Positions 14,140 to 30,368 of a DNA stretch of 41,081 nt are shown one piece after another. The notes beneath the pieces were generated by a model. That model ran no database searches. It worked only from the letters and a program-made list of their open reading frames with translations, and was not told the DNA's origin. The first letter of the stretch is position 1. Each line of letters opens with the position of its first letter. The translations under genes were made by a program, and so were the position numbers. This DNA is from Gallionella sp. Lineage in GTDB: Bacteria; Pseudomonadota; Gammaproteobacteria; Burkholderiales; Gallionellaceae. Where the stretch lies: positions 1-41,081 of the forward strand of contig JADGRL010000026.1 of the NCBI GenBank assembly GCA_017880865.1. Direction: 5' to 3'.

Positions 14140-14177
14140 TTTACAACTTTTTTACACCCAAGGGATTCATCTTTACA
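14140..14177 (+). promoter_or_regulatory. KdpE-type TTTACA box array ahead of kdp
   Basis: TTTACA occurs at 14140, 14151 and 14172, spaced 11 and 21 bases, i.e. on one helical face. The first two form TTTTTACAACTTTTTTACAC, closely like the E. coli KdpE site upstream of kdpFABC (as I remember it). The third may double as the -35 element. The transcript would cover the small ORF, kdpF, A, B and C. Confidence 0.7.
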
Positions 14178-14236: not shown

Positions 14237-14332
14237 ATGACGGACTGGTTCTTTCTATTATTGATTATGGTTTTCTACGGCCTCACCGTGCTGCTGATTT
14301 ATGGCATCGACAAACTAAGGAGCCCATCATGA
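14237..14332 (+). CDS. 31-residue membrane peptide opening the kdp operon
   Basis: ATG at 14237 gives MTDWFFLLLIMVFYGLTVLL, then IYGIDKLRSPS and a stop. It is one transmembrane helix with a short basic cytoplasmic tail. CAAGGAGCAA sits directly upstream. It overlaps the kdpF start by the ATGA pattern. Comparable tiny membrane ORFs precede kdpF in various proteobacteria (from memory). It could be an accessory peptide of the pump; it is below usual gene-calling thresholds. Confidence 0.7.
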   Translation: MTDWFFLLLIMVFYGLTVLLIYGIDKLRSPS

Positions 14333-14415
14333 CCTTCTACATCATCGGTGCCATCGCGGCTTTGTTGCTGATGGTTTATCTCGTGGTTGCCTTACTTAAA
14401 CCGGAGTTATTTTAA
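14329..14415 (+). CDS. kdpF: KdpF, small subunit of the K+-transporting ATPase
   Basis: A 28-residue single-pass membrane peptide, MTFYIIGAIAALLLMVYLVV followed by ALLKPELF, close in length and pattern to E. coli KdpF (29 residues, ending in a short polar tail). KdpF stabilises the KdpABC complex. It starts on the ATGA of the preceding ORF and ends on TAATG at the kdpA start, so it is translationally coupled on both sides. AAGGAG lies 8 bases upstream of its ATG. Confidence 0.88.
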   Translation: MTFYIIGAIAALLLMVYLVVALLKPELF

Positions 14416-16220
14416 TGATTAACGTATACGTTCAAATCGCCCTGTATCTGGGCGTACTGCTGGCTTTGGCCAAGCCTGTGGGCTATTACATGGCGCGCGT
14501 TTACGAGGGCAAGCTGCCCGCGCTGGTGCGCTGGATGGCACCTGCCGAAAATATTTTCTACCGCCTGTGCGGGGTGGATGCCAAGCAGGAGATGCGCTGG
14601 ACACAGTACGCGCTGGCGATGATATTGTTCAGCTTGCTGGGCGTGCTGGCGGTGTATGGCCTGCAGCGCTTGCAAGACTTGCTGCCGCTGAACCCGCAAG
14701 GTTTCGGCGCGGTCAGCCCCGATTCGTCGTTCAATACGGCGCTGAGCTTCGTCACCAACACCAACTGGCAGGGCTATGTTGGCGAAACTACGATGAGCTA
14801 CCTGACGCAGATGCTCGGGTTGTCGGTGCAGAACTTTTTCTCCGCCGCTACTGGCATGGCGGTGGTCATCGCGCTGATTCGCGGCTTCGCGCGTCACACG
14901 GTGGAAACCATCGGCAACTTCTGGGTGGACATGACGCGCAGCACGCTGTACATCCTGCTGCCTATTTCTACGGTGCTGGCGCTGGTGCTGGTCAGCCAGG
15001 GCGTAGTGCAGAATTTCTCCGCCTACCAAAGCGTGCCGCTGATGGAAAGCGCGAGCTACGACCAGCCAAAACTGGATGCTGCGGGTAATCCGATGAAGGA
15101 TGCCTCAGGCAATGCCGTGACCGAAAAAGTCGTGGTGAAAGAACAGTCCATCGCACTCGGCCCGGTCGCTTCGCAGGAAGCCATCAAGCAGCTCGGCACC
15201 AACGGCGGCGGTTTCTTCAACGCCAACTCGGCTCACCCGTTCGAGAACCCCACGCCCTTCGCCAATTTCCTGGAGATGCTGGCGATGTTCCTGATTCCTG
15301 CCGGGCTGTGCTACACCTTCGGCAGCATGGTGGGCGACACCCGCCAGGGCTGGGCGATCCTCGCCTCCATGACGATCTTGTTTGTCGGCTTCCTCGCTGT
15401 GGCTGAATACGCCGAGCAGCAGGGCAACCCCGCCTTTACGGCATTGGGTGTAAATCAGAGCGCTTCAGTCATGCAGTCCGGCGGCAATATGGAAGGCAAG
15501 GAGACGCGCTTCGGTATCGTCAACTCCGCGCTGTTCGCCACCATCACCACCGGCGCTTCCTGCGGTGCGGTGAACTCCATGCACGATTCCTTCACGCCGC
15601 TGGGCGGACTGGTGCCGATGGCGCAAATGCAATTGGGTGAAGTGGTGTTCGGCGGCGTCGGTTCCGGCTTGTACGGGATGCTGATTTATGCCGTGATCGC
15701 GGTATTCTTGGCCGGGCTGATGATAGGCCGCACCCCGGATTATCTGGGCAAGAAGATCGAGGCTTTCGACATCAAGATGGCATCCTTGGTGATCCTGATT
15801 CCGCCGCTGATCATTCTTGGCGGAACGGCGCTGGCAGTCATGCTCGGGGTGGGCAAGAGCAGTATCTACAACCCCGGCGCGCATGGCTTCAGTGAGGTGC
15901 TGTATGCCTTCACGTCGGCGGTTGCCAACAATGGCAGCGCCTTCGCGGGCATCTCCGCCAACACGCCGTTCTATAACAGCGCGCTGGGCTTCGCCGTATG
16001 GTTCGGACGCTTCTGGCTGATGATTCCGGTGCTGGCGCTGGCCGGTTCGCTGGCAGCCAAGAAACGCATGCCCGTGAGCGTGGGCAGCATGGCAACGCAT
16101 ACCCCGATGTTCGTCTGGTTGCTGATCGGCACGGTGCTGCTGGTGGGTGCATTGACCTTTGTGCCTGCACTCGCGCTGGGGCCTGTGATCGAACATCTGA
16201 ACATGATGGGTGCGCATTAA
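14415..16220 (+). CDS. kdpA: KdpA, potassium-translocating subunit
   Basis: A 601-residue inner-membrane protein of the superfamily of K+ transporters, with about ten transmembrane helices. Selectivity-filter-like regions are visible at TNTNWQGYVGE, GTNGGGFFNANSAHPFENP and TTGASCGAVNSMHD. It forms the K+ channel of the high-affinity KdpFABC pump. Start is the TAATG overlap with kdpF. Length is slightly above the ~560 of E. coli, because of a polar periplasmic segment (about 215-240, KLDAAGNPMKDASGNAVTEK), which is common in beta-proteobacterial forms. Confidence 0.96.
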   Translation: MINVYVQIALYLGVLLALAKPVGYYMARVYEGKLPALVRWMAPAENIFYRLCGVDAKQEMRWTQYALAMILFSLLGVLAVYGLQRLQDLLPLNPQGFGAVSPDSSFNTALSFVTNTNWQGYVGETTMSYLTQMLGLSVQNFFSAATGMAVVIALIRGFARHTVETIGNFWVDMTRSTLYILLPISTVLALVLVSQGVVQNFSAYQSVPLMESASYDQPKLDAAGNPMKDASGNAVTEKVVVKEQSIALGPVASQEAIKQLGTNGGGFFNANSAHPFENPTPFANFLEMLAMFLIPAGLCYTFGSMVGDTRQGWAILASMTILFVGFLAVAEYAEQQGNPAFTALGVNQSASVMQSGGNMEGKETRFGIVNSALFATITTGASCGAVNSMHDSFTPLGGLVPMAQMQLGEVVFGGVGSGLYGMLIYAVIAVFLAGLMIGRTPDYLGKKIEAFDIKMASLVILIPPLIILGGTALAVMLGVGKSSIYNPGAHGFSEVLYAFTSAVANNGSAFAGISANTPFYNSALGFAVWFGRFWLMIPVLALAGSLAAKKRMPVSVGSMATHTPMFVWLLIGTVLLVGALTFVPALALGPVIEHLNMMGAH

Positions 16221-16230
16221 CCGATGGATT

Positions 16231-16286
16231 GTAGGTCGGGTTTCCCCGCAGGGGTTCTCGTACCCTCTGGGTGCAACCCGACCTAC
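16231..16286. repeat. GTAGGTCGGG palindromic repeat between kdpA and kdpB
   Basis: GTAGGTCGGG at 16231-16240 pairs with CCCGACCTAC at 16277-16286. Inside are smaller palindromes (CCCCGCAGGGG, and ACCCTCTGGGT). The same 10-bp arms bound the element between nifK and nifD at 35636-35681, so both belong to one dispersed repeat family. Confidence 0.87.
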
Positions 16287-16313: not shown

Positions 16314-18386
16314 ATGACAACCAAAGCAATTCCGTTTTCCCTGTTTGAACGCGAAATCGTCAAACAGGCCATAGTGGACTCGTTCAAGAAATTGAGTCCG
16401 CGCCAGCAGATGAAAAACCCGGTGATGTTCGTGGTGTGGGTGGGCAGCGTGCTGACCACGGCGCTGTTCTTTCAGGCGCTGTTCGGGCACGGCGAAGCGC
16501 CGTCCGGCTTCATCCTGGCAATAACACTGTGGCTGTGGTTCACCGTGCTGTTCGCCAACTTCGCCGAAGCCCTGGCGGAAGGCCGCAGCCGTGCCCAAGC
16601 TAACGCGATGCGCAGCGCCAAGCGCGACGTTCAGGCCAAGAAATTGGTGCGTCCGTCTTATGGCGAGAAGTTCGTTTTGGCTGACGGTTCGAGTTTGCGC
16701 AAAGACGACGTGGTGCTGGTGGAAGCAGGCGATTTCATCCCCGGCGACGGCGAAGTAATCGAAGGTGTCGCCTCGGTGGATGAAAGCGCCATCACCGGCG
16801 AGAGCGCACCGGTAATACGCCAATCCGGCGGCGACTTCAACGCGGTAACCGGTGGTACACGGGTACTGTCCGACTGGCTGGTGGTACGCATCACCACCAA
16901 TCCGGGCGAGACTTTTCTGGATCGCATGATCGCGATGGTGGAAGGTGCCAAGCGCCAGAAGACGCCCAACGAGATCGCGCTCACCATCCTGCTGGTGGCG
17001 ATGACGCTGATCTTCCTGTTGGCTACTGTCACGCTGTTGCCGTTCTCCATCTACAGCGTCGAGGTAGCGGGTGCGGGGCAACCGGTCAGCATCACCGTGC
17101 TGGTGGCGTTGCTGGTGTGCCTGATTCCGACCACCATCGGCGGCTTGCTGTCCGCCATCGGCGTGGCAGGCATGGGACGCATGCTGCAAAAGAACGTGAT
17201 CGCCACATCCGGCCGTGCAGTTGAAGCGGCGGGAGACGTGGATGTGTTGCTGCTAGACAAGACCGGCACAATTACGCTGGGTAACCGCCAGGCCAGCAAC
17301 TTCCTCCATGCTGCTGGCGTGACCGAGGCCGAACTGGCCGATGCGGCACAGCTCGCCTCGCTCGCCGACGAAACACCGGAAGGTCGCAGCATCGTTGTTT
17401 TGGCCAAGGAAAAATTCGCGCTGCGCGAACGCAACATCCATGAACTGGGCGCGACCTTTGTGCCGTTCAGCGCACAGACGCGCATGAGCGGCGTAAATAT
17501 CGGTGATCGTCAGATACGCAAAGGCGCGACCGATGCTATCCGTAATTACGTTATAAGTCTCGGTGGAAACTTTCCAGCGGGAGTGGATGCCATCGTGGAC
17601 AGCGTCGCGCGTCGCGGCAGCACGCCGCTGGTAGTGGCGGATGGCGCAAAAGTGCTGGGTGTGATCGAGCTCAAGGACATCGTCAAGGGCGGCATCAAGG
17701 AACGCTTCGCCGAACTGCGCCGCATGGGCATCAAGACCATCATGATCACCGGCGACAACCGGCTCACCGCCGCCGCCATCGCAGCCGAAGCCGGAGTGGA
17801 CGACTTCCTCGCCGAAGCCACGCCGGAAGCCAAGCTGAAACTGATCCGCGAACATCAGGCGCAAGGCCGTCTGGTGGCGATGACCGGTGACGGCACCAAC
17901 GATGCCCCGGCATTGGCACAGGCCGACGTGGCGGTAGCGATGAACACCGGCACGCAGGCCGCGAAAGAAGCGGGCAACATGGTGGATCTGGATTCCAATC
18001 CGACCAAGCTGATCGAGATCGTCGAAACCGGCAAACAAATGTTGATGACGCGCGGCGCGCTGACCACCTTCAGCATCGCCAACGATGTCGCCAAGTATTT
18101 CGCCATTATTCCGGCGGCCTTTGCGTCCACCTATCCGGCACTCGGCAAGCTCAACGTGATGGGGCTGGCGACACCGTCCAGCGCGATATTGTCCGCCGTG
18201 ATTTTCAACGCGCTGATCATCATCGCGCTGGTTCCGCTGGCGCTCAAAGGCGTGAAATATCGCGCCATCGGCGCGAACGTGCTGCTGCGCAACAACCTGC
18301 TGGTCTACGGGCTGGGCGGCATCATCGTCCCGTTCATCGGCATCAAGCTGATCGACATGTTTCTTGTCGCTCTGCATTTAGTTTAA
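16314..18386 (+). CDS. kdpB: KdpB, P-type ATPase subunit
   Basis: A 690-residue P-type ATPase that drives K+ import through KdpA. It has [12 protein letters not shown] of the actuator domain, [12 protein letters not shown] with the phosphorylated Asp at residue 315, [10 protein letters not shown], and [17 protein letters not shown] of the hinge. About seven membrane helices frame these domains. AGGAGATTTAA precedes the ATG. The 93-base gap from kdpA is filled by a palindromic repeat. Confidence 0.97.
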
Positions 18387-18399: not shown

Positions 18400-18972
18400 A
18401 TGTTAAAACTAATACGTCCCGCCCTGATCAGCTTCCTGCTGCTGACCCTGATTACCGGCATCGCCTACCCGTTTGCCGTGACTGGCATCTCGCAGGGATT
18501 GATGCCCTTCCAGGCCAACGGCAGCCTGATCGTCAAGGACGGCAAGCCGGTCGGCTCCGCGCTGATCGGCCAGTCGTTCTCCGACCCCAAGTATTTCTGG
18601 GGTCGCCCTTCGGCGACCGGCCCGGTGGCCAATAACGCCGCCGCGTCCAGCGGCTCGAACCTGGGGCCGACCAACCCGGCGTTGATGGATGCGGTCAAAG
18701 GCCGCGTGCAAGCGCTGCGCGATGCCGATCCGGGTAATACCCAGCTGGTTCCGGTCGATCTGGTGACCGCCTCCGGCAGCGGCCTCGACCCGCAAATCAG
18801 CCCGGCGGCGGCGGAATACCAGCTCGCCCGCGTGGCGCGGATGCGCAATCTCCCCGTGGATGCCGTGCATAAGCTGGTAGAAGAACACACCGAGGGTCGC
18901 CAGTTCGGCATTCTGGGCGAGCCTCGGGTGAATGTGCTGGAACTCAATCTGGCGCTGGATGCAACACACTAA
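18400..18972 (+). CDS. kdpC: KdpC, K+-ATPase accessory subunit
   Basis: A 190-residue protein with one N-terminal membrane helix ([20 protein letters not shown]) and a periplasmic domain with [28 protein letters not shown] and [11 protein letters not shown], the standard KdpC motifs. It stabilises the pump and raises affinity. GAAAGGAATAATC precedes the ATG, 13 bases after kdpB. No terminator follows, and the porin gene starts 47 bases downstream. Confidence 0.96.
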
Positions 18973-19019: not shown

Positions 19020-20156
19020 ATGTTTAAAAATAAATTGTTGTACACCTTGATCCTGTCTGCTTTTAGCGTACCTGCAATGGCGGACACGCCTGCTCCAGCC
19101 GCGCCTGTTGCGCCCACACTTTCAGCCATTCTCGACGCGTCGGGAATAAGCGTAACGGGTGACCTGGATTTTTCCTACAGTTCATTGAGCGGTACAGGTC
19201 AATTTCAAGGCACCACTACGAATAACCGGGTTTTTGATTACGCGCACAACAGTTTCACCATGCAAGCGCTGGATCTGACTGTTGCAAAGCAGCCTGCCGA
19301 GGGCTACGGTGGATTGGTTGAGACCACCTTGGGCAAGGATGCCAGCACCATCGCATCTTCTGGCACTAACATGGCGAATCAGACCTACGACCTTACTCAA
19401 GCCTTTGTTCAATATGCTGCAGGTTCATGGACGACCATCGCCGGTAAGTTCATTACTCAGGCTGGGCAGGAATATATCAAGTCATCCGCCAACACCAATT
19501 TCTCGCGCTCCATCCTGTTCGGTTACGCGATTCCGTTTACCCACACCGGCTTTCGTTCCACTTATAAAATATCGGATGCGGTCAGCCTGATGGGTGGAGT
19601 GAATAACGGCTGGGATGAAGCGAACGACCTCCATCCAAACAAAAATGTTGAACTGGGTGTGATGCTGAATCCAACCAAGTCCATCGTGTTGAATTTAATG
19701 GATCACTACGGAACTGAGCAAGTTGCTTTCGGAACTCTAGGCACCCAAGGCAAGCGCAATCTGCTTGACGTGGTGGCCACCTATGCCGTGACTGATAACC
19801 TGAACTTTGCGTTGAACTATGACGGCGGCTCGCAGGCAAATTCAACGCTAGCCAATGGTTTAGCCGGGACAGCCAAATGGAGCGGCGTGGCAGCTTATGC
19901 AAACTACCAGATCAACGATTTGTGGCGTTTGTCAGTTCGCGGCGAGACTTTCAATGACACGGATGGCTATCGCACTGGCGTAGTTCAGAAATGGAAGGAA
20001 GCAACTTTGACCGTGGGTTATGCACCAAACAAGAATGTTGAGTTGCGCGGCGAAGTGCGCAAGGATACTTCGGACAAGGCTTCTTTCGCTTATAACGATG
20101 GTATCGCACGTAAAGCTCAAAGTTCCCTGGGACTGGAAGCGATTTACAAGTTTTAA
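19020..20156 (+). CDS. Outer-membrane beta-barrel porin (BBP2-like)
   Basis: A 378-residue protein with a signal peptide (MFKNKLLYTLILSAFSVPAMA, cleaved before DTPAPAA) and a Pro/Ala-rich linker. It then has alternating beta-strand sequence ending in aromatic Phe (GLEAIYKF), the outer-membrane insertion signal. The overall layout resembles porins of the BBP2/OmpL-like group. It may admit ions, which would fit its place just after kdpABC, but substrate is unknown. The Shine-Dalgarno is weak (AGAAAGAA). It is probably co-transcribed with kdpC or csp because no terminator separates them. Confidence 0.82.
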   Translation: MFKNKLLYTLILSAFSVPAMADTPAPAAPVAPTLSAILDASGISVTGDLDFSYSSLSGTGQFQGTTTNNRVFDYAHNSFTMQALDLTVAKQPAEGYGGLVETTLGKDASTIASSGTNMANQTYDLTQAFVQYAAGSWTTIAGKFITQAGQEYIKSSANTNFSRSILFGYAIPFTHTGFRSTYKISDAVSLMGGVNNGWDEANDLHPNKNVELGVMLNPTKSIVLNLMDHYGTEQVAFGTLGTQGKRNLLDVVATYAVTDNLNFALNYDGGSQANSTLANGLAGTAKWSGVAAYANYQINDLWRLSVRGETFNDTDGYRTGVVQKWKEATLTVGYAPNKNVELRGEVRKDTSDKASFAYNDGIARKAQSSLGLEAIYKF

Positions 20157-20182: not shown

Positions 20183-20386
20183 ATGGCTATCGGTACAGTA
20201 AAGTGGTTCAACGATGCGAAGGGTTTTGGATTCATCACTCCCGATGACGGCAGCGAGGATCTGTTCGCGCATTTCTCCGCCATCAGCGCGAGCGGTTTTA
20301 AGTCCTTGAAGGAAGGCCAGAAGGTTTCCTTCGAAGTGGTTCAAGGCCCCAAGGGCAAGCAAGCCTCCAACATTCAAGCGGCATAA
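20183..20386 (+). CDS. csp: Cold-shock family RNA chaperone
   Basis: A 67-residue CspA-type protein. RNP1 is [10 protein letters not shown] and RNP2 is LFAHFSAI, on the five-stranded OB fold, with a C-terminal [11 protein letters not shown]. It binds single-stranded RNA or DNA. GAAGGAAG lies 9 bases upstream. The gene starts only 26 bases after the porin stop, so the long cold-responsive leader of cspA is absent here and it is probably not cold-regulated through its own leader. An intrinsic terminator follows. Confidence 0.95.
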
Positions 20387-20410: not shown

Positions 20411-20435
20411 CCCGCTAGAAATGGCGGGCTTTTTT
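20411..20435 (+). terminator. Intrinsic terminator after csp
   Basis: CCCGC (20411-20415) pairs with GCGGG (20424-20428), with an 8-base loop and CTTTTTT directly after. It would end the kdp-porin-csp transcript and insulate the following operon. Confidence 0.87.
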
Positions 20436-20488
20436 ATGTCTGTTGGGTGAAGTGCGCAATATGCGTATCGGAAATTCTTGATGAGTTT

Positions 20489-20540
20489 TTTACATCCGAG
20501 GATTAACAATTTACGCTGTTTTTACACTGGTTTTTATAGT
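20489..20540 (+). promoter_or_regulatory. TTTACA box array and promoter ahead of the PII-like/kdpD unit
   Basis: TTTACA at 20489, TTTACG at 20510 and TTTACA at 20521 are spaced 21 and 11 bases, the same spacings as at kdp but in reverse order. The last reads TTTTTACAC, as at kdp. A likely -10 is TATAGT at 20535-20540, with 19 bases to TTTACG. KdpE, encoded at the end of this unit, is the likely binder, suggesting autoregulation. Confidence 0.6.
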
Positions 20541-20569
20541 ATGCATTCCATCCAAAGAAGGAGGATGGT

Positions 20570-20878
20570 ATGAAACGAATCACTACAGTTTTGAGAGAGT
20601 CGGAAGTGACGGCAGTGCGTAAAGCGGTTTGTATGGCGGGCGCAGAACGTGTCGTGATTATGCCGCTGTGTGTTGCAGAGCAGAAGGAATGGTACTTCAA
20701 TCAGCATGCCGCTCAGAGTGAAGTTCATGTTCGCCTTGAAGTGACCGTAGCTGACATCCACTACGGCGGCATAGTCGCTGCCATTCAAAGAGTCGCGCAA
20801 GCCGGGAAAGTTGTCTTGGACTCGCGTCATGACATGTTGCTCGTGCGACCCGCCCATTTATACGCCTCCCCGATATGA
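20570..20878 (+). CDS. PII-like signalling protein linked to potassium genes
   Basis: A 102-residue protein with a PII-like N-terminal strand (MKRITTVLRESEVTAVRKAV) and a second half VRLEVTVADIHYGGIVAAIQ then RVAQAGKV that parallels the classic PII VxIEIVVxDxxVxxxxxxIxxxAxTGKI segment. The T-loop is short (EQKEWYFNQ) and the GDGKIFV motif and the C-terminal Arg of GlnB are missing, so canonical ATP and 2-oxoglutarate binding is doubtful. PII-like proteins near transporters often gate them. AGAAGGAGGATGGT is a very strong Shine-Dalgarno. First gene of the unit with corA-like, kdpD and kdpE. Confidence 0.65.
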   Translation: MKRITTVLRESEVTAVRKAVCMAGAERVVIMPLCVAEQKEWYFNQHAAQSEVHVRLEVTVADIHYGGIVAAIQRVAQAGKVVLDSRHDMLLVRPAHLYASPI

Positions 20879-20937
20879 ACTCAATGTACATGAACTCACC
20901 ATTTATGAATTCTCCAGTGATGAACTCATTGGACATG
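20875..20937 (+). repeat. Four 15-bp ATGAACTC tandem units
   Basis: Units start at 20875, 20890, 20905 and 20920 (ATGAACTCA, ATGAACTCA, ATGAATTCT, ATGAACTCA each plus six or so variable bases), and a fifth ATG at 20935. The period is 15 bp, so the frame is kept, and each unit offers an ATG. Confidence 0.85.
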
Positions 20938-21072
20938 TGCACTCTTATGGAGCCGTTGCTCGCCATTCTCGTCATCGTGGTTCCGCTTGGGTTTGCGTAT
21001 GTCATCTTGTCGTGGCAATCGCGCAACCAGAGAGATGAAAATTGCAGAGTTCATGATCCAAGAAAACCGTAA
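20875..21072 (+). CDS. Small single-pass membrane ORF with MNS repeats
   Basis: 65 residues, overlapping the preceding stop by ATGA. The first 20 residues are four 5-residue units MNSMY MNSPF MNSPV MNSLD, encoded by 15-bp repeats. After M21 (20935) or M25 (20947) comes a single hydrophobic helix, LLAILVIVVPLGFAYVIL, and a polar tail (SWQSRNQRDENC). No good Shine-Dalgarno is seen for any of the ATGs, so it may depend on coupling to the PII-like gene. A KdpF-like accessory peptide is conceivable. The homology is not recognised. Confidence 0.5.
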   Translation: MNSMYMNSPFMNSPVMNSLDMCTLMEPLLAILVIVVPLGFAYVILSWQSRNQRDENCRVHDPRKP

Positions 21073-21111
21073 AGCTGTCTGCGGATGCTGAATATTAAAA
21101 TTGGTTAATCG

Positions 21112-21139
21112 CAACTTGCTGTAAACAACTTGCTGTAAA
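21112..21139 (+). repeat. 14-bp tandem duplication before the CorA-like gene
   Basis: CAACTTGCTGTAAA occurs twice head to tail (21112-21125 and 21126-21139), 10 bases before the ATG at 21149. There is no Shine-Dalgarno in this leader. It could be a protein or small-RNA site, or a recent slip duplication. Confidence 0.8.
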
Positions 21140-21148
21140 ATTAAACAC

Positions 21149-22795
21149 ATGATGACTGCTGCCGCTTTAGACCATACCGTCCGCCATTTCCGCGAGGTGC
21201 TGTTCTGGCCGGTGCAACTGATGCCGCTGGCGAGCGCGCAACCACAATGGGAATCGCTGGCGCAGGGTGGAGAAGAAAATCCGTGGCGCAGGTTGAAAGA
21301 TCGGTTTCAGTCTGGGGATTTGGAATTCGAGGAAAGGCACTACAAGGAATTCGTTGCCTTCCTGCCCTACGTGCAGCGCTTCATTTACGGCGAAAGCCAC
21401 AGTCGCAAGTCGCACGATGCCGACGATCCGCCCGGCGATTCGGCGATAAAAATTTTCCGGCGGCGCGGGGTCGCCGCTTTGCGGCTGGTGTTGCGCGATG
21501 GCGAAGCGCCGATCACGCTGGCCGTGGAACATATCGAGCTGTGGTTTTTCGACGACATCAACGTTGCTTTTCTCAAGGTGGAATTGTCCGCCTGCGACCT
21601 GCCGTTTGCCGACGTGTGCGATTTGCTGTACCGCTTTGGCCGCTCCTATCCGACCGGCTGGGACGAAGGCGGTCACGGCAAGCACAATGTCCACCGCGCC
21701 GAATGGTTATCCGCAGACGGCACGGTGCTGGTCGCGTCCGATACCGACAACAGGGAAAAATTTCTCTCCTACACCCGCGCGCACCGCTCGCCGGGCATCG
21801 CCGCACACTGGGATTTTTTGCTGCGCCCGCTGGTGCTGGACCCGTCCGAGGAAACTGGCCTGCTGCGCTATCGCCAGATCGAATATCACCGGATGCCGCT
21901 GATGGCATTTCTGTCCGTGGACAATCCGCGCGACATAAGCCGTGAAGACTGGCTGCGCCTCGGCTTGGTCGCCACGCTGCATCCCGATGATGCGTTGCCC
22001 AAGCATGATTCAGACGTAGCCGAGTTCGAGCAGCGCTACTGCTACGACCGTTTCTGGACCGATACCGAGGCCGGCCCCAACACGCGCTTCCTATGCACCG
22101 GTCGCGCATTCATCGTGGTCGGGGATGCGGGTGAAGATTATTTCCACAACCGGACGCACGGCATCCTGGCGCAATTCCGCCACCAATACGTTCTGATGTT
22201 CCTGATCGCACATTTTCACCGCGCCGCGCTGCTGGTGTTTTCCGACCGCATGGTGGATGCGGTGCATGATCTGGACATCCACCTGCCGCAATCCATCAGC
22301 CGTTTCCGGCGCAGGGTTTACGGCAGCTTTGAAGCCTTTTTGCGCTTCACCCACCGCTACTGGTTCCACGAATTATCCGAACGGGCACACGTGCAGGCGC
22401 TCTACCGCTTGTGCAGCGAGCGGCTGGGCAACGACGCGCTGTACCGCGAGGTGAAAGAGGAGTTGCGCGACATGAGCCAGTATCTCGACAGCAACTCGCA
22501 GCGCCAGCAATCCACCACCATCGTGCGCCTCACCGTCGTGACCGTGTTCAGCATGGTCGGCACGGTCGCCACCGGATTGCTCGGCATGAACCTCCTCGCC
22601 GAAGCCGACGCGCCGATCTCCACGCGCATGGTCTATTTCATCGTCACCACGCTGATCGTGGCGCTGTTCATGCTGCTCGCCATCCTCAAATCGAAACAGC
22701 TCTCCGATGTGATGGACGTGCTGGCCGACGACCAGAAAAGTTTGCGCAGCCGTCTGGTTGCGCTGGGTACGGCTTGGCGGCGGAATTTGCCATGA
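21149..22795 (+). CDS. CorA-family divalent-cation channel, long form
   Basis: A 548-residue membrane protein. A long cytoplasmic N-terminal domain (about 470 residues, versus roughly 240 in E. coli CorA) is followed by two C-terminal helices joined by the CorA signature GMN (VATGLLGMNLLAEADAP). TM1 is VVTVFSMVGTVATGLL, and TM2 VYFIVTTLIVALFMLLAIL. It should transport Mg2+ or another divalent ion. It has no visible Shine-Dalgarno. The stop overlaps the kdpD ATG by ATGA, tying it to potassium sensing; a link between Mg2+ and K+ homeostasis is inferred. Confidence 0.85.
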   Translation: MMTAAALDHTVRHFREVLFWPVQLMPLASAQPQWESLAQGGEENPWRRLKDRFQSGDLEFEERHYKEFVAFLPYVQRFIYGESHSRKSHDADDPPGDSAIKIFRRRGVAALRLVLRDGEAPITLAVEHIELWFFDDINVAFLKVELSACDLPFADVCDLLYRFGRSYPTGWDEGGHGKHNVHRAEWLSADGTVLVASDTDNREKFLSYTRAHRSPGIAAHWDFLLRPLVLDPSEETGLLRYRQIEYHRMPLMAFLSVDNPRDISREDWLRLGLVATLHPDDALPKHDSDVAEFEQRYCYDRFWTDTEAGPNTRFLCTGRAFIVVGDAGEDYFHNRTHGILAQFRHQYVLMFLIAHFHRAALLVFSDRMVDAVHDLDIHLPQSISRFRRRVYGSFEAFLRFTHRYWFHELSERAHVQALYRLCSERLGNDALYREVKEELRDMSQYLDSNSQRQQSTTIVRLTVVTVFSMVGTVATGLLGMNLLAEADAPISTRMVYFIVTTLIVALFMLLAILKSKQLSDVMDVLADDQKSLRSRLVALGTAWRRNLP

Positions 22796-25545
22796 ACGAT
22801 ACAAACCAACGCCCCGATCCCGACGCACTGCTGGAAAAAGTACAGCGTGCCGAAGCCATACGCCGCCGTGGACGCCTGAAGATTTTCTTCGGCGCTTCTG
22901 CCGGTGTCGGCAAAACCTTCGGCATGTTGCTGGCTGCGCACGAGCGCCGCGCGGAAGGTTTAGATGTGGTGGCGGGTTATGTAGAAACGCACAAGCGCGT
23001 CGAAACTGAGCAGTTGCTGCAAGGGCTGGAAGCTCTGCCGCTACGCATGGTTCTATACCGCGATACGCAATTGCGCGAATTTGATTTGGATGCCGCCATC
23101 CGGCGTCATCCGGCGCTGATTCTGGTAGACGAATTGGCGCATACCAATGCGCCGGGTTCACGGCACCCGAAGCGCTGGCAGGATGTGGAAGAATTGCTGG
23201 ACGCGGGTATCGATGTCTATTCCACGATCAACGTCCAGCACATCGAAAGTCTCAACGATGTGGTCTCGCAAATCACTGGCATTCCGGTATGGGAAACCGT
23301 GCCCGACGCGGTGCTGGAAAGCGCCAATGAAATCGAGCTGATCGATCTTCCCCCGGACGAGCTGTTGCAGCGGCTCAAAGAAGGCAAGGTCTACCTGCCG
23401 CAGCAGGCGGAACGTGCGGCGCAGAATTTTTTCCGCAAGGGCAACCTGATCGCACTGCGCGAACTGGCGTTGCGGCGCACGGCGGACCGTGTGGATGCGC
23501 AGATGCGCGACTACCGCGAAGACCATGCCATTCAGGACGTATGGCAGGTTAAAGAACGGATGCTTGTCTGCATCGGGCCGGGCGGCATGGCTGCCGAGAA
23601 TCTGGTGCGTGCTTCGTTCCGTCTGGCGCAGTTGCTTAAGGCCGAGTGGATCGTGGTATATGTCGAGACGGCGAAACTTCAGCGTCTTTCCAAGGAACAG
23701 CGCGACGCCATACTGCGTACCTTGAAGCTGGCGGAGGAACTGGGTGCAGAGACGGTAACGCTGGGCGGTCACCGGTTGGCCGAAGAGGTGATTTCATATG
23801 CGCGCACCCGCAATGCCACCCGCATCGTGCTGGGCAAGCCGTCCCTGTCAGGTTGGAAACGCTGGCTGCTCGGGTCGCTGGTTGACACCATCGTGCGCCA
23901 GGCCAACGACATAGACATTCATGTAGTGGGCAAGGAACCCAATTTCCTGTCGCTGACGAGGGAGAATCCCTATTTCTCGCGCAGCCGTTTATATCTCGGG
24001 CTTGCCTCCGAGGAGCAGCGCCCGATGTTCAAGTGGCGCTCGGGCTATATGTGGGCAATCGCCGCGTCGGCAAGCTGCACAACCATCGCCTGGCTCATGT
24101 TAGGCCACTTCGATCTGGCCAACCTGATCATGATTTACCTGTTGGGCGTGGTGGTGGTTGCCGCGCGTTACGGGCGCGGCCCATCGGTGCTGAGTTCGTT
24201 TCTGAGCGTGGTGTTGTTTGATTTCTTTTTCGTGCCGCCTCGATTCAGTTTTGCCGTATCCGATAGCCAATATCTGATTACTTTCGCCGTCATGCTGTTG
24301 GTCGCGCTGTTCATCAGCAGCATGACGGCAAGCACCCTCCACCAGGCCAGGATTGCCGGCCACCGCGAGCGCCGCATCGCCTCGCTGTACGCCATGAGCC
24401 GCGAACTGACCGCGACACGCGGCGAAGAAAATATCGTGAGCATTGCGATCAAGCATGTGGCGGAGGTTTTTGAGGCGCAGGTAGTGGTATTGCTGCCCAA
24501 TGAGACGGGGCGCATCGTTTATCCCAAGGGCGACGGGACGGCTCAATCCAGTCATGGCAGCGACCTGAGCGTGGCGCAATGGGTGTATGACCATGGGCAA
24601 ATGGCGGGACAGGGCACGGACACCCTGCCGGGAAACGAGATGGTTTACCTGCCGTTGAAAGCCTCTTCGGGAATGATAGGCGTGTTGGCCTTGTTGCCGC
24701 TTAATCCGGCGCGTATTGCACTGCCCGAACAACAACGTCTGCTGGAGACTTTTGTTAGCCAGATCGCTCAGGCGCTGGAGCGGGTCAAGCTGGCTTTGGT
24801 AGCGCACAACGTACAATTAAAAATGGAAACGGAGCAGTTGCGCAATACTTTGCTCTCAGCCATTTCACACGATTTGCGTACCCCGCTGGCAGCGATTGTG
24901 GGCTCATCCAGCAGTCTGATGAGGGACGGCGACAGGCTGGATAGCCATGCTCGCCAAGAACTCAGCCAGGCCATTTATGAAGAAGCTACACGCATGGCCG
25001 GGCTGGCCAACAACCTGCTGGATATGGCGCGGCTTGAGGCAGGCGCTGTCGTGCTGAACCGGCAATGGCAACCGCTGGAAGAAGTGGTGGGCGGCGCGTT
25101 GGCGGGCTTGACGGCACGCATGGCTAACCATCCGGTAAGCGTCAAGCTACCGCACGATTTGCCATTGATCGAGATTGACAGCATGCTGATCGAGCGGGTG
25201 TTTGCAAACCTGCTGGAAAATGCCGTGAAATACACGCCATCTGGAACCCCCATCCAGATTTCTGCCGCAAGCGTAGAGAACGAATTGGTGGTGACGGTTT
25301 CCGATAAAGGCGCTGGCATTCCGGCAGGGGAAGAAAAGCTTATTTTTGAAAAATTCCATCGTGTCGATACCGAGGGCAATAAGGGCGGAGCGGGGCTGGG
25401 ACTGACGATCTGCCGCTCCATTGTGGAGGCGCACGGCGGACGGATATGGGCGGATAACTTGTCTTCGGGCGGCGCGGCATTTCATTTCGCCTTGCCATTG
25501 AGCGAGCCGCCGTTGATCGAGCAGGAAGAAGCGACTCAATCATGA
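22792..25545 (+). CDS. kdpD: KdpD, potassium/turgor sensor histidine kinase
   Basis: A 917-residue sensor. Its N-terminal KdpD domain has Walker A GASAGVGKTFGML near residue 32 and a Walker-B-like LILVDELAHTNAPGSRHP. A USP-like domain follows. Four membrane helices lie at about 420-520, then a GAF-like domain, then HisKA with ISHDLRTPL (His at 693), and a HATPase with NLLENAVKYTP, GAGIP and GAGLGLTICRSIVEAHGG. It senses low K+ and phosphorylates KdpE. The ATG overlaps the CorA-like stop. Most kdpD genes follow kdpC; here it is separated from kdpC by porin, csp, PII-like and CorA-like genes. Confidence 0.96.
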   Translation: MNDTNQRPDPDALLEKVQRAEAIRRRGRLKIFFGASAGVGKTFGMLLAAHERRAEGLDVVAGYVETHKRVETEQLLQGLEALPLRMVLYRDTQLREFDLDAAIRRHPALILVDELAHTNAPGSRHPKRWQDVEELLDAGIDVYSTINVQHIESLNDVVSQITGIPVWETVPDAVLESANEIELIDLPPDELLQRLKEGKVYLPQQAERAAQNFFRKGNLIALRELALRRTADRVDAQMRDYREDHAIQDVWQVKERMLVCIGPGGMAAENLVRASFRLAQLLKAEWIVVYVETAKLQRLSKEQRDAILRTLKLAEELGAETVTLGGHRLAEEVISYARTRNATRIVLGKPSLSGWKRWLLGSLVDTIVRQANDIDIHVVGKEPNFLSLTRENPYFSRSRLYLGLASEEQRPMFKWRSGYMWAIAASASCTTIAWLMLGHFDLANLIMIYLLGVVVVAARYGRGPSVLSSFLSVVLFDFFFVPPRFSFAVSDSQYLITFAVMLLVALFISSMTASTLHQARIAGHRERRIASLYAMSRELTATRGEENIVSIAIKHVAEVFEAQVVVLLPNETGRIVYPKGDGTAQSSHGSDLSVAQWVYDHGQMAGQGTDTLPGNEMVYLPLKASSGMIGVLALLPLNPARIALPEQQRLLETFVSQIAQALERVKLALVAHNVQLKMETEQLRNTLLSAISHDLRTPLAAIVGSSSSLMRDGDRLDSHARQELSQAIYEEATRMAGLANNLLDMARLEAGAVVLNRQWQPLEEVVGGALAGLTARMANHPVSVKLPHDLPLIEIDSMLIERVFANLLENAVKYTPSGTPIQISAASVENELVVTVSDKGAGIPAGEEKLIFEKFHRVDTEGNKGGAGLGLTICRSIVEAHGGRIWADNLSSGGAAFHFALPLSEPPLIEQEEATQS

Positions 25546-26234
25546 ATAACTCCGCCACCCTCATCGTCATCGAAGACGAAGCGCAGATACGCCGCTTCCT
25601 GCGAACTATGCTTACCTCGGAAGATTACCAGGTAATCGAAGCGGAAACAGGCAAGCAGGGACTGCTTGAGGCCGCGACGCGCAAACCGGACCTGATTATT
25701 CTTGATCTCGGCTTGCCTGACATGGATGGGGTGGAAGTGGTCAAAGGAATACGCGCATGGTCTTCTGTTCCGGTCATCATCCTGTCCGCGCGTTCACAGG
25801 AAAGCGACAAGATTTCCGCTCTGGATGCGGGTGCGGATGATTATCTGGTCAAACCTTTCGGCGCAGGTGAGCTACTGGCTCGAATACGCGTGGCATTACG
25901 TCATGTGTCTTTTACTACAAATGGGGAAGAAGGCATTTTCTCGGTGGACGAGCTGAAGGTGGACATGATTCATCGCAAGGTCACGGTCAGTGGCACGGAA
26001 GTTCACCTCACTCCGATTGAATACCGCTTGCTGACGGTGTTGATAAAAAACGCAGGTAAGGTGCTGACGCACCGTTTGCTGCTTACGGAAGTCTGGGGGC
26101 CGAACTACGTGGAGCGCGCCCACTACCTGCGCATCTATATGGGCACATTGCGCCACAAGCTGGAGAAAGACCCGGCGCGCCCGCGTTTTCTGCTGACGGA
26201 AGTCGGCGTTGGTTACAGACTGGCAGTGATTTAA
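25542..26234 (+). CDS. kdpE: KdpE response regulator
   Basis: A 230-residue OmpR-family regulator. The receiver domain has VIEDEAQIRRFLRTML, the phospho-acceptor Asp 55 in LIILDLGLPDMDG, and LVKPFGAGEL. The C-terminal winged helix has VHLTPIEYRLLTVLIKNAGK and TEVGVGYRL. It activates kdp under K+ limitation. It overlaps kdpD (ATGA). The TTTACA arrays at 14140-14177 and 20489-20526 are its probable targets. It converges on the minus-strand gene ending at 26255; no terminator is visible in the 20-base gap. Confidence 0.96.
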   Translation: MNNSATLIVIEDEAQIRRFLRTMLTSEDYQVIEAETGKQGLLEAATRKPDLIILDLGLPDMDGVEVVKGIRAWSSVPVIILSARSQESDKISALDAGADDYLVKPFGAGELLARIRVALRHVSFTTNGEEGIFSVDELKVDMIHRKVTVSGTEVHLTPIEYRLLTVLIKNAGKVLTHRLLLTEVWGPNYVERAHYLRIYMGTLRHKLEKDPARPRFLLTEVGVGYRLAVI

Positions 26235-26254: not shown

Positions 26255-27208
26255 TTAAACCGAATACGGCGCAGCGACCCAACTCCTTAGCAACGCTGCT
26301 TCGGTATCCGGCAGGTAACTGAATCCGGCATCCAGATCGCGCATCACGGCGTAGGCTATTTTTGGCGGGGTGAAGGTCCCTGCCACCAGATGAAAATACC
26401 AAGCTGACGTGTAACCGGCGGCACGGTCGAACGCTTGCAATTGCGCGGACATTGGAACGCCGGAAATCTCGATGTTCCAGTGGAAAGGTTTGAGTTCGCG
26501 CGCATGGCACGAAATCAATGACGCTGAAACCACCGGGTTGCGGTAGCGATCCTGATGCTCGCGCAACGCGACGATCCAGTGATCGTTGAAATGACCGCGC
26601 GCTGCCGCGCTACTGTGCGACCAGTCGGAAAGGTAGCGTGTCAGGCCATCTTTGCGTCCATTGGCGAATGTGACTTTTGCTACCGTTTTTCGCATGTCGA
26701 TCAATCTGCGAAATTGATAACGCGGCGCACCGACAGCTTGTGCTTCCATCAAGTCAGGCGAAATCGGCTCGATCAACTCCTGTAAATCATCCGGCGGATT
26801 GTCCGCATTGAGCAGCCGTCTATCCAATACCTCCTGCAACTCCTCGACCTCAAGCTGCAAGAATTCCGTCGGTGCCGAGCCGTAGGCCGCGACGAAATAA
26901 TGCGTGCGTCCGGTATGGCGCGTCACCAGACTATCACTGCCGGCATGACGTTCGATGAACTCATGCATATCGCCGGCGCAGCCATCGAGTTCAGCTCTTG
27001 CCCAGGTTTCCAGATTGTCGGCGACACGCGTGCCATCCGCCAGAATCACGCCGCCCTGACGATACCAGCCGCCACGGTTCACCGCGTAACGGAATGTACA
27101 GCCGGGCCTGATGCGGTTGGCGATGTCCAGCAACGCGCTGTGATGCGGGCGCGGTGAAATTTTATCAATCTCGGTAGCCAAACTGCGCACGGTTAAATCA
27201 TCCATCAT
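26255..27208 (-). CDS. Unknown protein co-transcribed with lrv
   Basis: A 317-residue soluble protein that I do not recognise. It has mixed alpha/beta sequence with no signal peptide or membrane segment. Conspicuous pieces are RIRPGCTFRYAVNRGGWYRQGG, RHTGRTHYFVAAYGSAPTEF, an acidic helix LEVEELQEVLDRRLL, and a His/Trp-rich C-terminal half (HFNDHWIVALREHQDRY, HARELKPFHWNIEISG). Conserved-looking His, Trp and Arg suggest an enzyme or ligand binding, but nothing decides it. The ATG at 27208 overlaps the lrv stop and has AGAGGACG upstream; a longer 27340 start would lie inside lrv. NifA control through the lrv promoter is likely. Confidence 0.75.
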   Translation of the reverse strand: MMDDLTVRSLATEIDKISPRPHHSALLDIANRIRPGCTFRYAVNRGGWYRQGGVILADGTRVADNLETWARAELDGCAGDMHEFIERHAGSDSLVTRHTGRTHYFVAAYGSAPTEFLQLEVEELQEVLDRRLLNADNPPDDLQELIEPISPDLMEAQAVGAPRYQFRRLIDMRKTVAKVTFANGRKDGLTRYLSDWSHSSAAARGHFNDHWIVALREHQDRYRNPVVSASLISCHARELKPFHWNIEISGVPMSAQLQAFDRAAGYTSAWYFHLVAGTFTPPKIAYAVMRDLDAGFSYLPDTEAALLRSWVAAPYSV

Positions 27209-27972
27209 GTTTCGTCCTCTCGCAAAAATCCATCCAAACGGCGACGCACCACCGCACGCACATCCGGCTCGGCATCGTCGATCAAAGCTGTGATGGCTTC
27301 CAGCGGTGCGAGCTGTGCTGCGAACTGCCGCACCAGCCAATCGCTATCCGCCAGCATCGTCGCCGCATCCATCGGCAGCATGCGCGCGGCTACGATACGC
27401 CGCACTTCTGCATCTTCATCCTGCGCCATGCGGCGCAGTGCAAACGACGGCAACTGTCGCGCTACCTCTTTTCGCACTTCTCGATCCGGATCGTGCGCCA
27501 TGCGTGGCAACTGTCCATGCGGCAGACGCTTCGCCACCTGCAATCGCACCAGATAATCCAGATCGCTGATTAGCGCATTCAAACTTTCCGGCACGATACG
27601 CGCCGCCACCGTCATGCGCACTTCCCTGTCCGTGTCGTGCAGATAATCGCCCAGTTCACCTATCGGCAAGCGGCTCGCCACCACACGGCGCACCACCTCG
27701 TCTTTATCCCGCGCCATTTTCCGCACCGCATCCAGTGGTGCATAACGCGCCGCAATCGCGCGCCGCTCCCAGAAGGTATCAGTCAGACTAGCCTGTGCGA
27801 GCTGTGGATTGCGGCGCAAGAAGCGGTCTATCTGCCGCCCGCTCTGAGCGATCAGGCAGACATCACCCGGCTCGCATTTTCCCAGCGCCCGCAATGCCCG
27901 ATGCGAACACACCGAGCAATCGGCGCATACGACCCCGGTCAACATTGATGCGCCGGAATGACGTTCCGACAT
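27205..27972 (-). CDS. lrv: LRV-type leucine-rich-repeat variant Fe-S protein
   Basis: A 255-residue protein with an N-terminal four-cysteine segment (CADCSVCSHRALRALGKCEPGDVC) that should bind a [4Fe-4S] cluster, then about nine leucine-rich-variant helical repeats of roughly 24 residues (for example MAHDPDREVRKEVARQLPSF). This matches the LRV protein of Azotobacter vinelandii, also encoded near nif genes. The function is unknown; interaction with an Fe-S or electron-transfer protein is suggested by the fold. The ATG at 27972 follows AAGGGTTTGAAT. It is preceded by its own sigma-54 promoter and NifA site. Confidence 0.92.
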   Translation of the reverse strand: MSERHSGASMLTGVVCADCSVCSHRALRALGKCEPGDVCLIAQSGRQIDRFLRRNPQLAQASLTDTFWERRAIAARYAPLDAVRKMARDKDEVVRRVVASRLPIGELGDYLHDTDREVRMTVAARIVPESLNALISDLDYLVRLQVAKRLPHGQLPRMAHDPDREVRKEVARQLPSFALRRMAQDEDAEVRRIVAARMLPMDAATMLADSDWLVRQFAAQLAPLEAITALIDDAEPDVRAVVRRRLDGFLREDET

Positions 27973-28021
27973 ATTCAAACCCTTCAATTTGTAGCTCCGC
28001 AATGGATCGCCACAATGAACA

Positions 28022-28036
28022 GCAACCACCATGCCA
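28022..28036 (-). promoter_or_regulatory. Sigma-54 promoter of lrv
   Basis: On the minus strand TGGCAT-GGTGG-TTGC matches the RpoN consensus with one change and correct spacing, 50 bases ahead of the lrv ATG. A perfect NifA site lies about 89 bp upstream. Confidence 0.87.
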
Positions 28037-28105
28037 TCACGTGATACATCTCGTTAAGCCCATAAATACAAGCAATGACGACCTCATTGGGAAATAAAAG
28101 CGAGG

Positions 28106-28131
28106 CGTTTTGTCGCACTTACGACAAAACG
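28106..28131. promoter_or_regulatory. NifA site embedded in a perfect palindrome
   Basis: CGTTTTGTCG-CACTTA-CGACAAAACG, 10-bp arms and 6-base loop. The core TGT-CGCACTTACG-ACA (28111-28126) is an exact TGT-N10-ACA site. In the minus-strand mod transcript the same sequence forms a hairpin just beyond the GNAT stop, so it may also act as a transcript end. Confidence 0.8.
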
Positions 28132-28138
28132 ATGTCGT

Positions 28139-28600
28139 TCAGGCAGACAAGTTTTTGCGCAACACTGTCATATGCGAATGCTCGAAGCCCAGCTTGTGAT
28201 AAAAATCCAGCGCGGCGGTATTATTTCCATCCGCCAACAGGGTCACGCGAACCAGGCCTTCCGATTTTGCCCAAGCGAGAACATGTTCAACCAGCGCACG
28301 CCCCAGCCCCCTGCCCCGATACTCGTTATGTACGATCACGTCTTCCAGCAACAGCACGCGGCCGCCTTCCGCCGTGCTGACCGTGATCAGCGCGTTGGCC
28401 ATGCCGGCGACCACACCGTCGACACGCAACACGAACAACCGTCCCAGCGCTGTGTTATCCAGAATCAGGCGCAGCCCGCGCAACTGCTTGTCGCGGTCGG
28501 GGCGAAAATCGCTTTCCAGCGCGAATAATTCGGCGAGCAAGTCGGCTATTTGCGGCAAGTCGTCCGCGGTGGCAAAGCCAATTTCGACGTAGCCGTTCAT
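28139..28600 (-). CDS. GNAT-family N-acetyltransferase at the end of the mod operon
   Basis: A 153-residue GNAT protein. VLLLEDVIVHNEYRGRGLGR contains the acetyl-CoA pyrophosphate loop (R-G-x-G-L-G-R-A). ALDFYHKLGFEHSH is the usual C-terminal strand-helix. The substrate is unknown. The ATG overlaps the modC stop (ATGA), so it is part of the mod unit and under its sigma-54 promoter. A role acting on an amine of molybdate or nitrogen metabolism, or on a protein lysine, would be speculation. Confidence 0.87.
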   Translation of the reverse strand: MNGYVEIGFATADDLPQIADLLAELFALESDFRPDRDKQLRGLRLILDNTALGRLFVLRVDGVVAGMANALITVSTAEGGRVLLLEDVIVHNEYRGRGLGRALVEHVLAWAKSEGLVRVTLLADGNNTAALDFYHKLGFEHSHMTVLRKNLSA

Positions 28601-29685
28601 GACATCAGTGCGACGCTTTTAATTTGCGCAAACACGTCCATCCCGACAGTGAGATTGAGCAGGTCGCGCGAGCGGCGTGTGATGCGCGACAACAGCACAT
28701 GCGATTCACTGAGCATCAGGCGCACCATCACTTTATCAGGGCCTTCATCGCGGATCTCCGCGATGCGCGCATTCAGAATATTGGTGATGCTGGAGCCGTG
28801 TGGCATGACGGTAGCGATGCTCACATCGCGCGCCAGCACGCGGGCACGCACCCGGCTGCCGGGCGGCTGTTTCACCTGCCCGACCCACAAGCTGCCGCCG
28901 GAAAAATCCAGCCGCGTGAGATGATAGGCCTCGTCGTGCTGCGCCACCGCAGCCATGATCACCGCGCCCGCATCGTCGAGATGCGCGGTAGGCAGGTCGA
29001 GGCGAGCTAGGGTCTCGCCCAGCGCGCCGCTGGCGATCACGCGGCCTTGTTGCAGCAGCACCAGATGGTCGGCCAGCCGCGCCACCTCGTCCAGCGCATG
29101 GCTGACGTAGAGCACCGGGATATTCAGCTCGCGATGCAAGCGTTCCAGATACGGCAGGATGTCTTGTTTGCTATTCGTGTCGAGCGCTGCGAGCGGTTCA
29201 TCCATCAGCAGCAGGCGCGGGCTGGTGAGCAGCGCACGGCCGATGGCGACGCGCTGGCGCTCGCCGCCGGAAAGTTTTGCCGGGTCACCGCGTTCGATCA
29301 GTCGTTCCAGCCCCAGCCATTCCACCACCTGCTCCAGTGGCACGCGGCGTTCGGAGGGAGGAATACGTTTGAAACCATATTCAAGATTGGCGCGCACCGA
29401 CAAGTGCGGGAACAGGCTAGCCTCCTGGAACACGTAGCCCAATGGGCGACGGTGTGTCGGCATAAAAATTGTGTCGTCCTGCCACACTTCGCCATTCATA
29501 TACAGCGACCCGGCAGCGCGCTCCAGCCCGGCGATGCAGCGCAGCAGCGTGGTCTTGCCGGAGCCGGACGGGCCGAACAACGCGGTGACGCCAACAACAG
29601 GCGCGCTGAATGTGGCATCCAGCGCGAAGCTCTCCAGTTGCAACGTGAAGTGCGCGCGTATTTCGCTCACATGCTTTTCGCTCAT
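28597..29685 (-). CDS. modC: ModC, molybdate ABC transporter ATPase
   Basis: A 362-residue ATPase. It has Walker [12 protein letters not shown] near residue 40, signature [17 protein letters not shown], Walker [13 protein letters not shown] and a C-terminal MOP (molybdate-binding) domain around [11 protein letters not shown] and [14 protein letters not shown]. It powers ModB for molybdate import. AAGGTGACCCG precedes the ATG, which overlaps the modB stop (ATGA). An ORF reading starting at 30243 in this frame would run into modB and is not used. Confidence 0.95.
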
Positions 29686-30368
29686 CGGGTCACCTTCGAC
29701 AGCTTCCCGCCCGCGAGATACAAGCCGAGCAACACGACGAATGAGAACAGCACCATGCCGCCCGCAAGAAAATGCGCCGCACCGTATTCCATCGCCTCGA
29801 CGTGACTGTAAATCGCGACGGACAATACCCGCGTCTCGCCGGGAATGTTGCCGCCCAGCATCAGCACCACGCCGAATTCGCCAACGGTGTGTGCGAAGGC
29901 GAGGATGATCGCAGTGAGGAAACCGGGGCGCGCCAGCGGCAGCGCAACACTGACAAAACGATCCCACGCACCGGCGCGCAACGTCGCCGCCACTTCCAGC
30001 GGACGACGGCCAATCGCTTCGAACGCGTTCTGGATCGGCTGCACCGCAAACGGCATGGAGAAAAACACCGAGCCGATCACTAGGCCGTAAAAGGTAAACG
30101 GCAATCGGCCCAGTCCTAGCGCCGTGGTCAGCTCGCCCACCGCACCATGCGGCCCCATCAATAACAGCAGATAGAAACCCAGCACCGTCGGCGGCAAAAC
30201 CAGCGGCAAGGCAACTACTGCCGCGACGGGCCCTTTGTACCACTTGCGACTATGCGCCAACCACCACGCCAGCGGCGTGGCGATGAGCAACAGCAAGCAG
30301 GTGGTGACGCTCGCTAATTTGAGCGTCAGCCAGACGGCATGGAGGTCGGCGGGATCTAGCGTTGCCAT
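29682..30368 (-). CDS. modB: ModB, molybdate ABC transporter permease
   Basis: A 228-residue permease with five or six membrane helices. The EAA loop for ModC contact reads [20 protein letters not shown]. The pattern [17 protein letters not shown] is typical of ModB. It starts 6 bases after the modA stop and overlaps modC. Function: MoO4 2- import across the inner membrane with ModA and ModC. Confidence 0.95.

Follow-up and report, generated by a model that had tools for sequence, protein, structure and literature searches.

The DNA analysed here, a 41,081-base stretch that forms one contig of an 84-contig Gallionella sp. genome (hereafter the window), carries a kdp locus for potassium uptake. 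From 5' to 3', and all on the forward strand, the locus is composed of kdpF, kdpA, kdpB and kdpC, a BBP2 porin gene, the cold-shock protein gene csp, a hairpin, the gene of a PII-like protein that we call PIIL, a short open reading frame (mini-ORF), a CorA-like gene, kdpD and kdpE. We find that PIIL is a real, conserved PII-type component of the kdp operon in some iron-oxidising bacteria, undescribed as far as our searches reached. The Escherichia coli KdpFABC/KdpDE system shares with this locus the arrangements kdpF-A-B-C and kdpD-E and the spacing of the KdpE half-sites. However, in E. coli K-12 no gene separates kdpC from kdpD, whereas the window has a second KdpE-type promoter there, with PIIL, the mini-ORF and the CorA-like gene.

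PIIL is a divergent member of the PII superfamily, as judged from profile comparison, alignment and modelling. As a single sequence, it scores 17.7 bits (E 0.0047) with the Pfam P-II family PF00543, whose gathering cut-off is 25, and NCBIfam gives no family match for it. In our searches, 106 proteins match PIIL, the window's own counted. A 50-row PIIL profile aligned with ten GlnB/GlnK rows reaches 95.7% in hhalign, with E 8.3e-9. The predicted single-chain structure (mean predicted local distance difference test, pLDDT, 75; predicted template modelling score, pTM, 0.64) runs strand-helix-strand, loop, strand-helix-strand. This corresponds to the beta-alpha-beta-beta-alpha-beta ferredoxin-like fold of PII, and the top PDB matches of the model are PII proteins. 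An earlier sequence-only reading of this DNA had described a PII-like protein devoid of the GDGK motif and had asked for structural modelling, with an unrelated fold in mind as the alternative. The model shows the PII fold, and the description holds on both counts.

In PII proteins, the GDGK B-loop and the RxR C-loop contact ATP, and the T-loop motif YRGAEY holds a modifiable tyrosine. Neither GDGK nor RxR is seen in the PIIL consensus or in the displayed rows of the 50-row alignment, and YRGAEY is absent from PIIL according to the alignment and the profile comparison. By comparison, every one of the 11 true PII genes translated carries GDGK. A tree of 15 PIIL rows (the truncated copy of L049 was excluded) and 22 GlnB/GlnK rows places the PIIL rows in a single clade on a long branch, with support 100/100, apart from the others. 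Pairwise ratios of nonsynonymous to synonymous substitution rates (dN/dS) range from 0.13 to 0.86 and point to purifying selection on PIIL. The idea that PIIL is a recent copy of the GlnK of the ammonium operon was considered and is unsupported, the clade being separate, although the long branches leave its placement unsure.

PIIL was found at 16 distinct places in Gallionellaceae and near kin: the window, L007 (G000:C43), L010 (G460, three copies in one locus), L011 (G055), L012 (G468), L013 (G456), L014 (G023), L015 (G094), L016, L047 (G213), L113 (G542, two copies), L048 (G314) and L049 (G142). Fifteen of these places have kdp genes on the stretch that holds PIIL; the remaining one, in G023, is visible on a 3.2-kb contig only. 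A search of other genomes had been suggested in the sequence-only reading, and it shows that the linkage of PIIL and the mini-ORF to kdp is conserved. Within the family, PIIL occurs in 8 of 158 genomes and KdpD (E 1e-150 or better) in 32 of 158. A ninth match, in G465, was removed because it is a GlnK beside a porin and AmtB. With at most 12 or 13 candidates scored per genome, so that misses are possible, 73 of 399 genomes of the order match the PIIL profile, those below 1e-9 being G000, G213, G094, G314 and G142 only, and one of 369 genomes of the class, the window's own, has PIIL at 1e-8. Eleven of the weak matches in the order were translated, and all carry GDGK. A candidate from Bythopirellula (L017) was rejected as a true GlnB. 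G000 appears to carry a second kdp operon, equipped with a PIIL of its own and a Gcw_chp porin (G000:C43, that is L007; G000:C20:3-2105). In L012, the final 33 residues of KdpC are encoded again behind the mini-ORF (positions 3301-3399), a sign of rearrangement at the kdp locus.

E. coli KdpE binds the half-sites TTTATA and TTTACA, separated by 5 bp (PMC3264566). In the 41,081 bases of the window, the pattern TTTAYRN5TTTAYA, written after both sites were known, occurs twice, at 14140 in the kdpF promoter and at 20510 in the PIIL promoter, and it does not occur in 100 shuffles. So that the window would not shape its own test, a 67-bp weight matrix was trained on the kdpF promoters of L010, L011, L013, L015 and L016 only. 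This matrix ranks the window's kdpF promoter first and its PIIL promoter second (Table 1), everything else in the window scoring -7.8 or less; its maximum in 30 first-order simulated windows is 0.1, and it gives the E. coli kdpF promoter 18.2. Across 926,747 bases, in which many loci overlap, 77 matches exceed 10 bits: 21 before kdpA at the kdpF distance (seven of these rows come from the five training places), 48 before PIIL, 7 before a second, weakly PII-like gene described below, and one before a degenerate PIIL (L108). No match above 10 bits was found in the glnK-amtB loci scanned. A match is present at 15 of the 16 PIIL places, and in 9 of these 15 it stands 92 bp before the PIIL start. 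The KdpE-type boxes noticed earlier before the PIIL gene are thus recovered by the pattern and by the window-free matrix alike, and PIIL very likely belongs to the KdpE regulon. In L108 (positions 7993-8463, G536), the KdpE-type promoter and the mini-ORF are kept and PIIL is reduced to a remnant.

Table 1 Features of the kdp locus in the window
Feature	Position	Strand	Basis or score
KdpE-type direct repeat TTTACA-N5-TTTACA before kdpF (reference site)	14140..14156	+	matrix 83.1
kdpF, 28 residues	14329..14415	+	translation
kdpA	14415..16220	+	ORF call and relatives
kdpB, TGES motif present	16314..18386	+	ORF call and relatives
kdpC	18400..18972	+	PF02669, E 8.5e-78
BBP2 outer-membrane porin	19020..20156	+	PF07642, E 9.8e-56
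csp, cold-shock protein	20183..20386	+	PF00313, E 8.5e-31
Terminator-like hairpin, then CTTTTTT, 3' of csp	20411..20428	+	hairpin scan; about 1 expected by chance
KdpE-type PIIL promoter: half-site pairs 20478-20494 and 20510-20526, then TATAGT 20535-20540	20478..20544	+	matrix 18.1
PIIL, PII-superfamily protein, 102 residues, without GDGK loop	20570..20878	+	profile, alignment, model
Mini-ORF, single hydrophobic stretch	20875..21072	+	core consensus PLLAxLAIVVPLGLAYVI, 14 aligned copies
CorA-like, 548 residues, C-terminal CorA domain and GMN motif	21149..22795	+	PF01544, E 5.1e-7
kdpD, start ATG 22792	22792..25545	+	PF02702, E 1.2e-97
kdpE, start ATG 25542	25542..26234	+	NF007820, 339.3 bits (cut-off 325)

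The sequence-only reading saw in PIIL, the mini-ORF, the CorA-like gene and kdpDE one tightly packed unit with three ATGA junctions, insulated from kdpABC by a terminator. The gene order and the overlaps are indeed in the sequence (CorA-like/kdpD at 22792, kdpD/kdpE at 25542, PIIL/mini-ORF at 20875-20878), but homology speaks against the PIIL/mini-ORF overlap as a true start. The likely start of the mini-ORF is 20920 or 20935 (Met-16 or Met-21), not 20875. Units resembling ATGAACTC are repeated at its beginning (MNS...MNS...MNS..., 20875-20940) and offer several possible starts; the residues that precede the conserved part derive from these repeated units. The start at 20875 is doubtful because the conserved part begins later and because none of the nine junctions examined in relatives has an ATGA overlap. 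As for the terminator, the hairpin and its T run are present after csp, but a terminator-type scan of 801 bases gave 2 matches for a shuffle mean of 1.0. The same 801 bases hold no match to the sigma-70 consensus.

The mini-ORF follows PIIL at 11 of the 13 places with downstream sequence, the exceptions being divergent copies in L010 and L113. It is also found without PIIL in L052, L053, L080 and L081. An identification of the mini-ORF as kdpF was rejected: kdpF has its own place before kdpA in the window and in the five relatives checked.

The 548-residue protein is of the CorA family by domain and motif, and its Mg2+ transport is putative. It matches PF01544 with 29.7 bits (cut-off 27) over C-terminal residues 435-511 only, and it reaches 12.9 bits with the NCBIfam CorA equivalog, below the cut-off of 200.75. 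The GMN motif is present in the window protein and is replaced by GTN in 1 of 15 rows (L053). Eight PIIL loci are readable to kdpD, and five of them have a CorA-type gene in the interval from PIIL to kdpD. It is of the 548-residue type in the window and L047, and a canonical CorA of 321 residues in L010, L011 and L013; the two canonical proteins scanned, of L010 and L013, have Pfam E values of 7e-58 and 1e-56. L113 keeps a CorA-like remnant at this position. L015 has no CorA there; its CorA-type gene (40% identity) stands on the other strand, in the kdpC-PIIL interval. L014 stops short of kdpD and shows the start of a CorA-type gene at the contig end. No CorA-type gene was found in L016, readable to kdpD, or in the downstream sequence of L012.

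For comparison, the family offers 21 kdp loci that lack PIIL and are readable from kdpC to kdpD. Without correction for kinship, a CorA-type gene is present in 8 of these 21, against 7 of the 10 PIIL loci whose downstream sequence is available. It precedes kdpD in seven of the PIIL-free loci (G101, G469, G511, G533, G534, G536 and the second operon of G542), where G536, counted as PIIL-free, holds the PIIL remnant. G494 has its CorA-like gene, which is of the 548-residue type, 3' of kdpE and not before kdpD (L092:5208-5729). The other 13 show no CorA-type gene in view. CorA is therefore a frequent add-on, enriched with PIIL yet separable from it. It is neither needed nor specific, since L012 and L016 have none and PIIL-free loci have it.

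Other genes are also inserted in this region. L010 has an island between two PIIL copies (positions 11420-16234) with CNNM/CBS, DUF4118/PAS, Usp and cold-shock genes. In L013 (10611-11909), L014 and L047 (1658-2940), a second short, weakly PII-like gene followed by a DHDPS-family gene stands between the mini-ORF and CorA. The product of this second gene (133/127 residues) reaches only 0.001-0.003 against the GlnB/GlnK profile. A KdpE-type site belonging to the gene scores above 10 bits in L013 and L014 and only 0.2 in L047.

The closest parallel to the kdp-PIIL arrangement is the porin-glnK-amtB operon, which is the form of the amtB operon in the loci of the family that we examined. Its porin is Gcw_chp or BBP2. 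The same two porin families occupy the gap between kdpC and PIIL, with BBP2 in the window, L048 and L049, and Gcw_chp in L007, L010, L011, L012, L013, L016 and L113. The window BBP2 is 81-87% identical to the BBP2 of the glnK-amtB locus of its own genome (C46), and the two are sisters in the tree (95% in the Shimodaira-Hasegawa-like approximate likelihood ratio test). The porin trees were made by a quick method, and some of their branches are long. In the BBP2 tree (22 rows), the three kdp-linked rows need 3 place changes. In the Gcw_chp tree (43 rows), the nine kdp-linked rows need 6, of which 5 are forced by well-supported branches, and they are partly clustered (shuffled mean, 8.3 changes). 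The Gcw_chp rows are mainly the 30 best loci kept after a search in which 108 of 158 genomes matched, a selection that leans to kdp-like porins. Six Gcw_chp and three BBP2 rows, with none of glnK, amtB, kdp or PIIL within 500 bp on their strand, were scored as "other". We read these trees as indicating that porins were exchanged repeatedly between ammonium and potassium operons while PIIL remained with kdp. Such exchange suggests that the two porin families may serve as monovalent-cation pores. Among the papers listed in literature searches on these porins and on futile cycling of ammonium by Kdp, none was on point.

PII proteins couple membrane transport to the nitrogen or carbon status of the cell, and Kdp can futilely cycle ammonium. 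We favour, at about an even chance, the view that PIIL is a PII-type regulator dedicated to Kdp, made in K+ limitation and feeding back on the pump or on KdpD. When K+ is short, KdpD would phosphorylate KdpE, which would switch on kdpFABC and the second promoter. This promoter would yield PIIL together with the one-helix mini protein; in the window genome it would also yield the CorA-like protein and extra KdpDE. PIIL may then return a cell-status signal to Kdp, most likely via binding to the pump or KdpD, and could damp uptake once K+ is restored or when another cation, for instance ammonium, would be pumped. The mini protein may dock PIIL at the membrane. Related cases are known: in Methanosarcina, a PII protein acts on a transporter via a small protein (PMC10714827); in Sinorhizobium, the nitrogen-linked protein PtsN binds KdpD (PMC9239096); and KdpD inhibits the pump via serine phosphorylation (PMC11018627).

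Several observations weigh against a dedicated Kdp regulator. Kdp works without PIIL, as the family counts for PIIL and KdpD show. In L012, PIIL and the mini-ORF are not followed by kdpDE on an 8.8-kb contig, and the kdpD of G468 is on another contig. The place L048 has no matrix match, the copy of G536 is degenerate, and the mini-ORF is weakly constrained (dN/dS 0.31-1.30). Regarding the protein itself, the P-II score is below its cut-off and the mean pLDDT is only 75. An origin from GlnK lacks support, the PIIL clade being separate and not nested in GlnK, and with the ATP loop and the T-loop motif gone the GlnK ligand cannot be transferred to PIIL.

A narrower form of the same view, in which PIIL acts on KdpD, as GlnB does on NtrB, and sets KdpE phosphorylation instead of pump activity, seems rather unlikely to us. 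In its favour, PIIL stands directly upstream of kdpDE in the window, in the same orientation, and a nitrogen-linked regulator binds KdpD (PMC9239096). Against it, some PIIL copies lie apart from kdpD: in L010 copy a and the one on the minus strand, in L113 the second copy, and the copy of L012, where no kdpD follows. The two routes can meet, since KdpD also phosphorylates the pump (PMC11018627). The sequence-only reading proposed a possible combined K+ and Mg2+ control system, with PIIL modulating KdpD or the CorA-like channel; we consider here the form in which PIIL, the mini protein and the CorA-like channel work as one unit and PIIL gates the channel. Part of this stands: many relatives have CorA-family genes close to kdpD, most readable PIIL loci have them in the PIIL-kdpD interval, the L113 remnant, the opposite-strand gene of L015 and the contig-end gene of L014 come in addition, and L010 has its CNNM/CBS gene besides. 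As the core of the system, a K+/Mg2+ unit is less well supported, given the proportions with and without PIIL; the features that stay constant are kdp and a KdpE-type promoter. CorA-type genes are missing from L016 and L012, they precede kdpD without PIIL in G101, G469, G511, G533, G534 and the second operon of G542, and two very different types, of 548 and 321 residues, alternate. We regard such a unit as improbable.

The last explanation, that PIIL is a decaying PII copy with little function, carried along in a variable kdpC-kdpD insert, appears the least probable of all. The patchy presence of PIIL, the degenerate L108 copy and the variety of genes that fill this insert, among them CorA types, porins and DHDPS, would suit such a passenger, but PIIL is under purifying selection, its promoter is conserved together with the 92-bp spacing, and one locus maintains three copies. 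Returning to PIIL as a Kdp regulator, a broader picture can be sketched tentatively, and we hold it to be possible though somewhat doubtful: Kdp of Gallionellaceae would have its own KdpE-induced PII-type controller and a membrane docking peptide, with porins swapped with the ammonium operon, so that K+ and NH4+ uptake would use the same kit of porin, inner-membrane transporter and PII protein in a coordinated manner.

With porin-glnK-amtB, the PIIL arrangement shares a PII-family gene placed behind the same two porin families and beside a cation transporter, in the same genus and even in the same genome (L151). The transporter is KdpFABC here and AmtB there, and PIIL differs from GlnK in its missing GDGK and YRGAEY motifs, its own clade and its KdpE-type promoter. 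To our knowledge, PstA/DarA, the c-di-AMP-binding PII-like protein of Firmicutes, has no kdp linkage, and we know of no earlier PII-type regulator of a P-type ATPase. The sP36-GlnK1-AmtB1 system of Methanosarcina mazei likewise joins a small protein, a PII protein and a membrane transporter, but it is archaeal, concerns ammonium and is likened here by gene make-up, not by sequence (PMC10714827). Among the papers listed in literature searches, made largely without subscription journals, none describes a PII/Kdp system, and the sequence-only reading likewise knew of no described system with this exact gene set. If the regulatory role is true, a PII partner for a K+ pump would extend PII logic to potassium and give a handle on how cells stop ATP-driven Kdp from running away or pumping ammonium.

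A general link between kdp and nif genes was rejected, as the scanned flanks of L010, L013 and L047 are not nif. In the window, a gene of the nitrogenase component 1 type (PF00148, NifE/N-like) is located left of the kdp block, at 12513-13946 on the minus strand. To the right, also on the minus strand (27205-30368), are an LRV FeS4 protein and an ABC transporter with a TOBE domain, which we take to be of the molybdate type. In L016, a homocitrate-synthase-type gene is found downstream.

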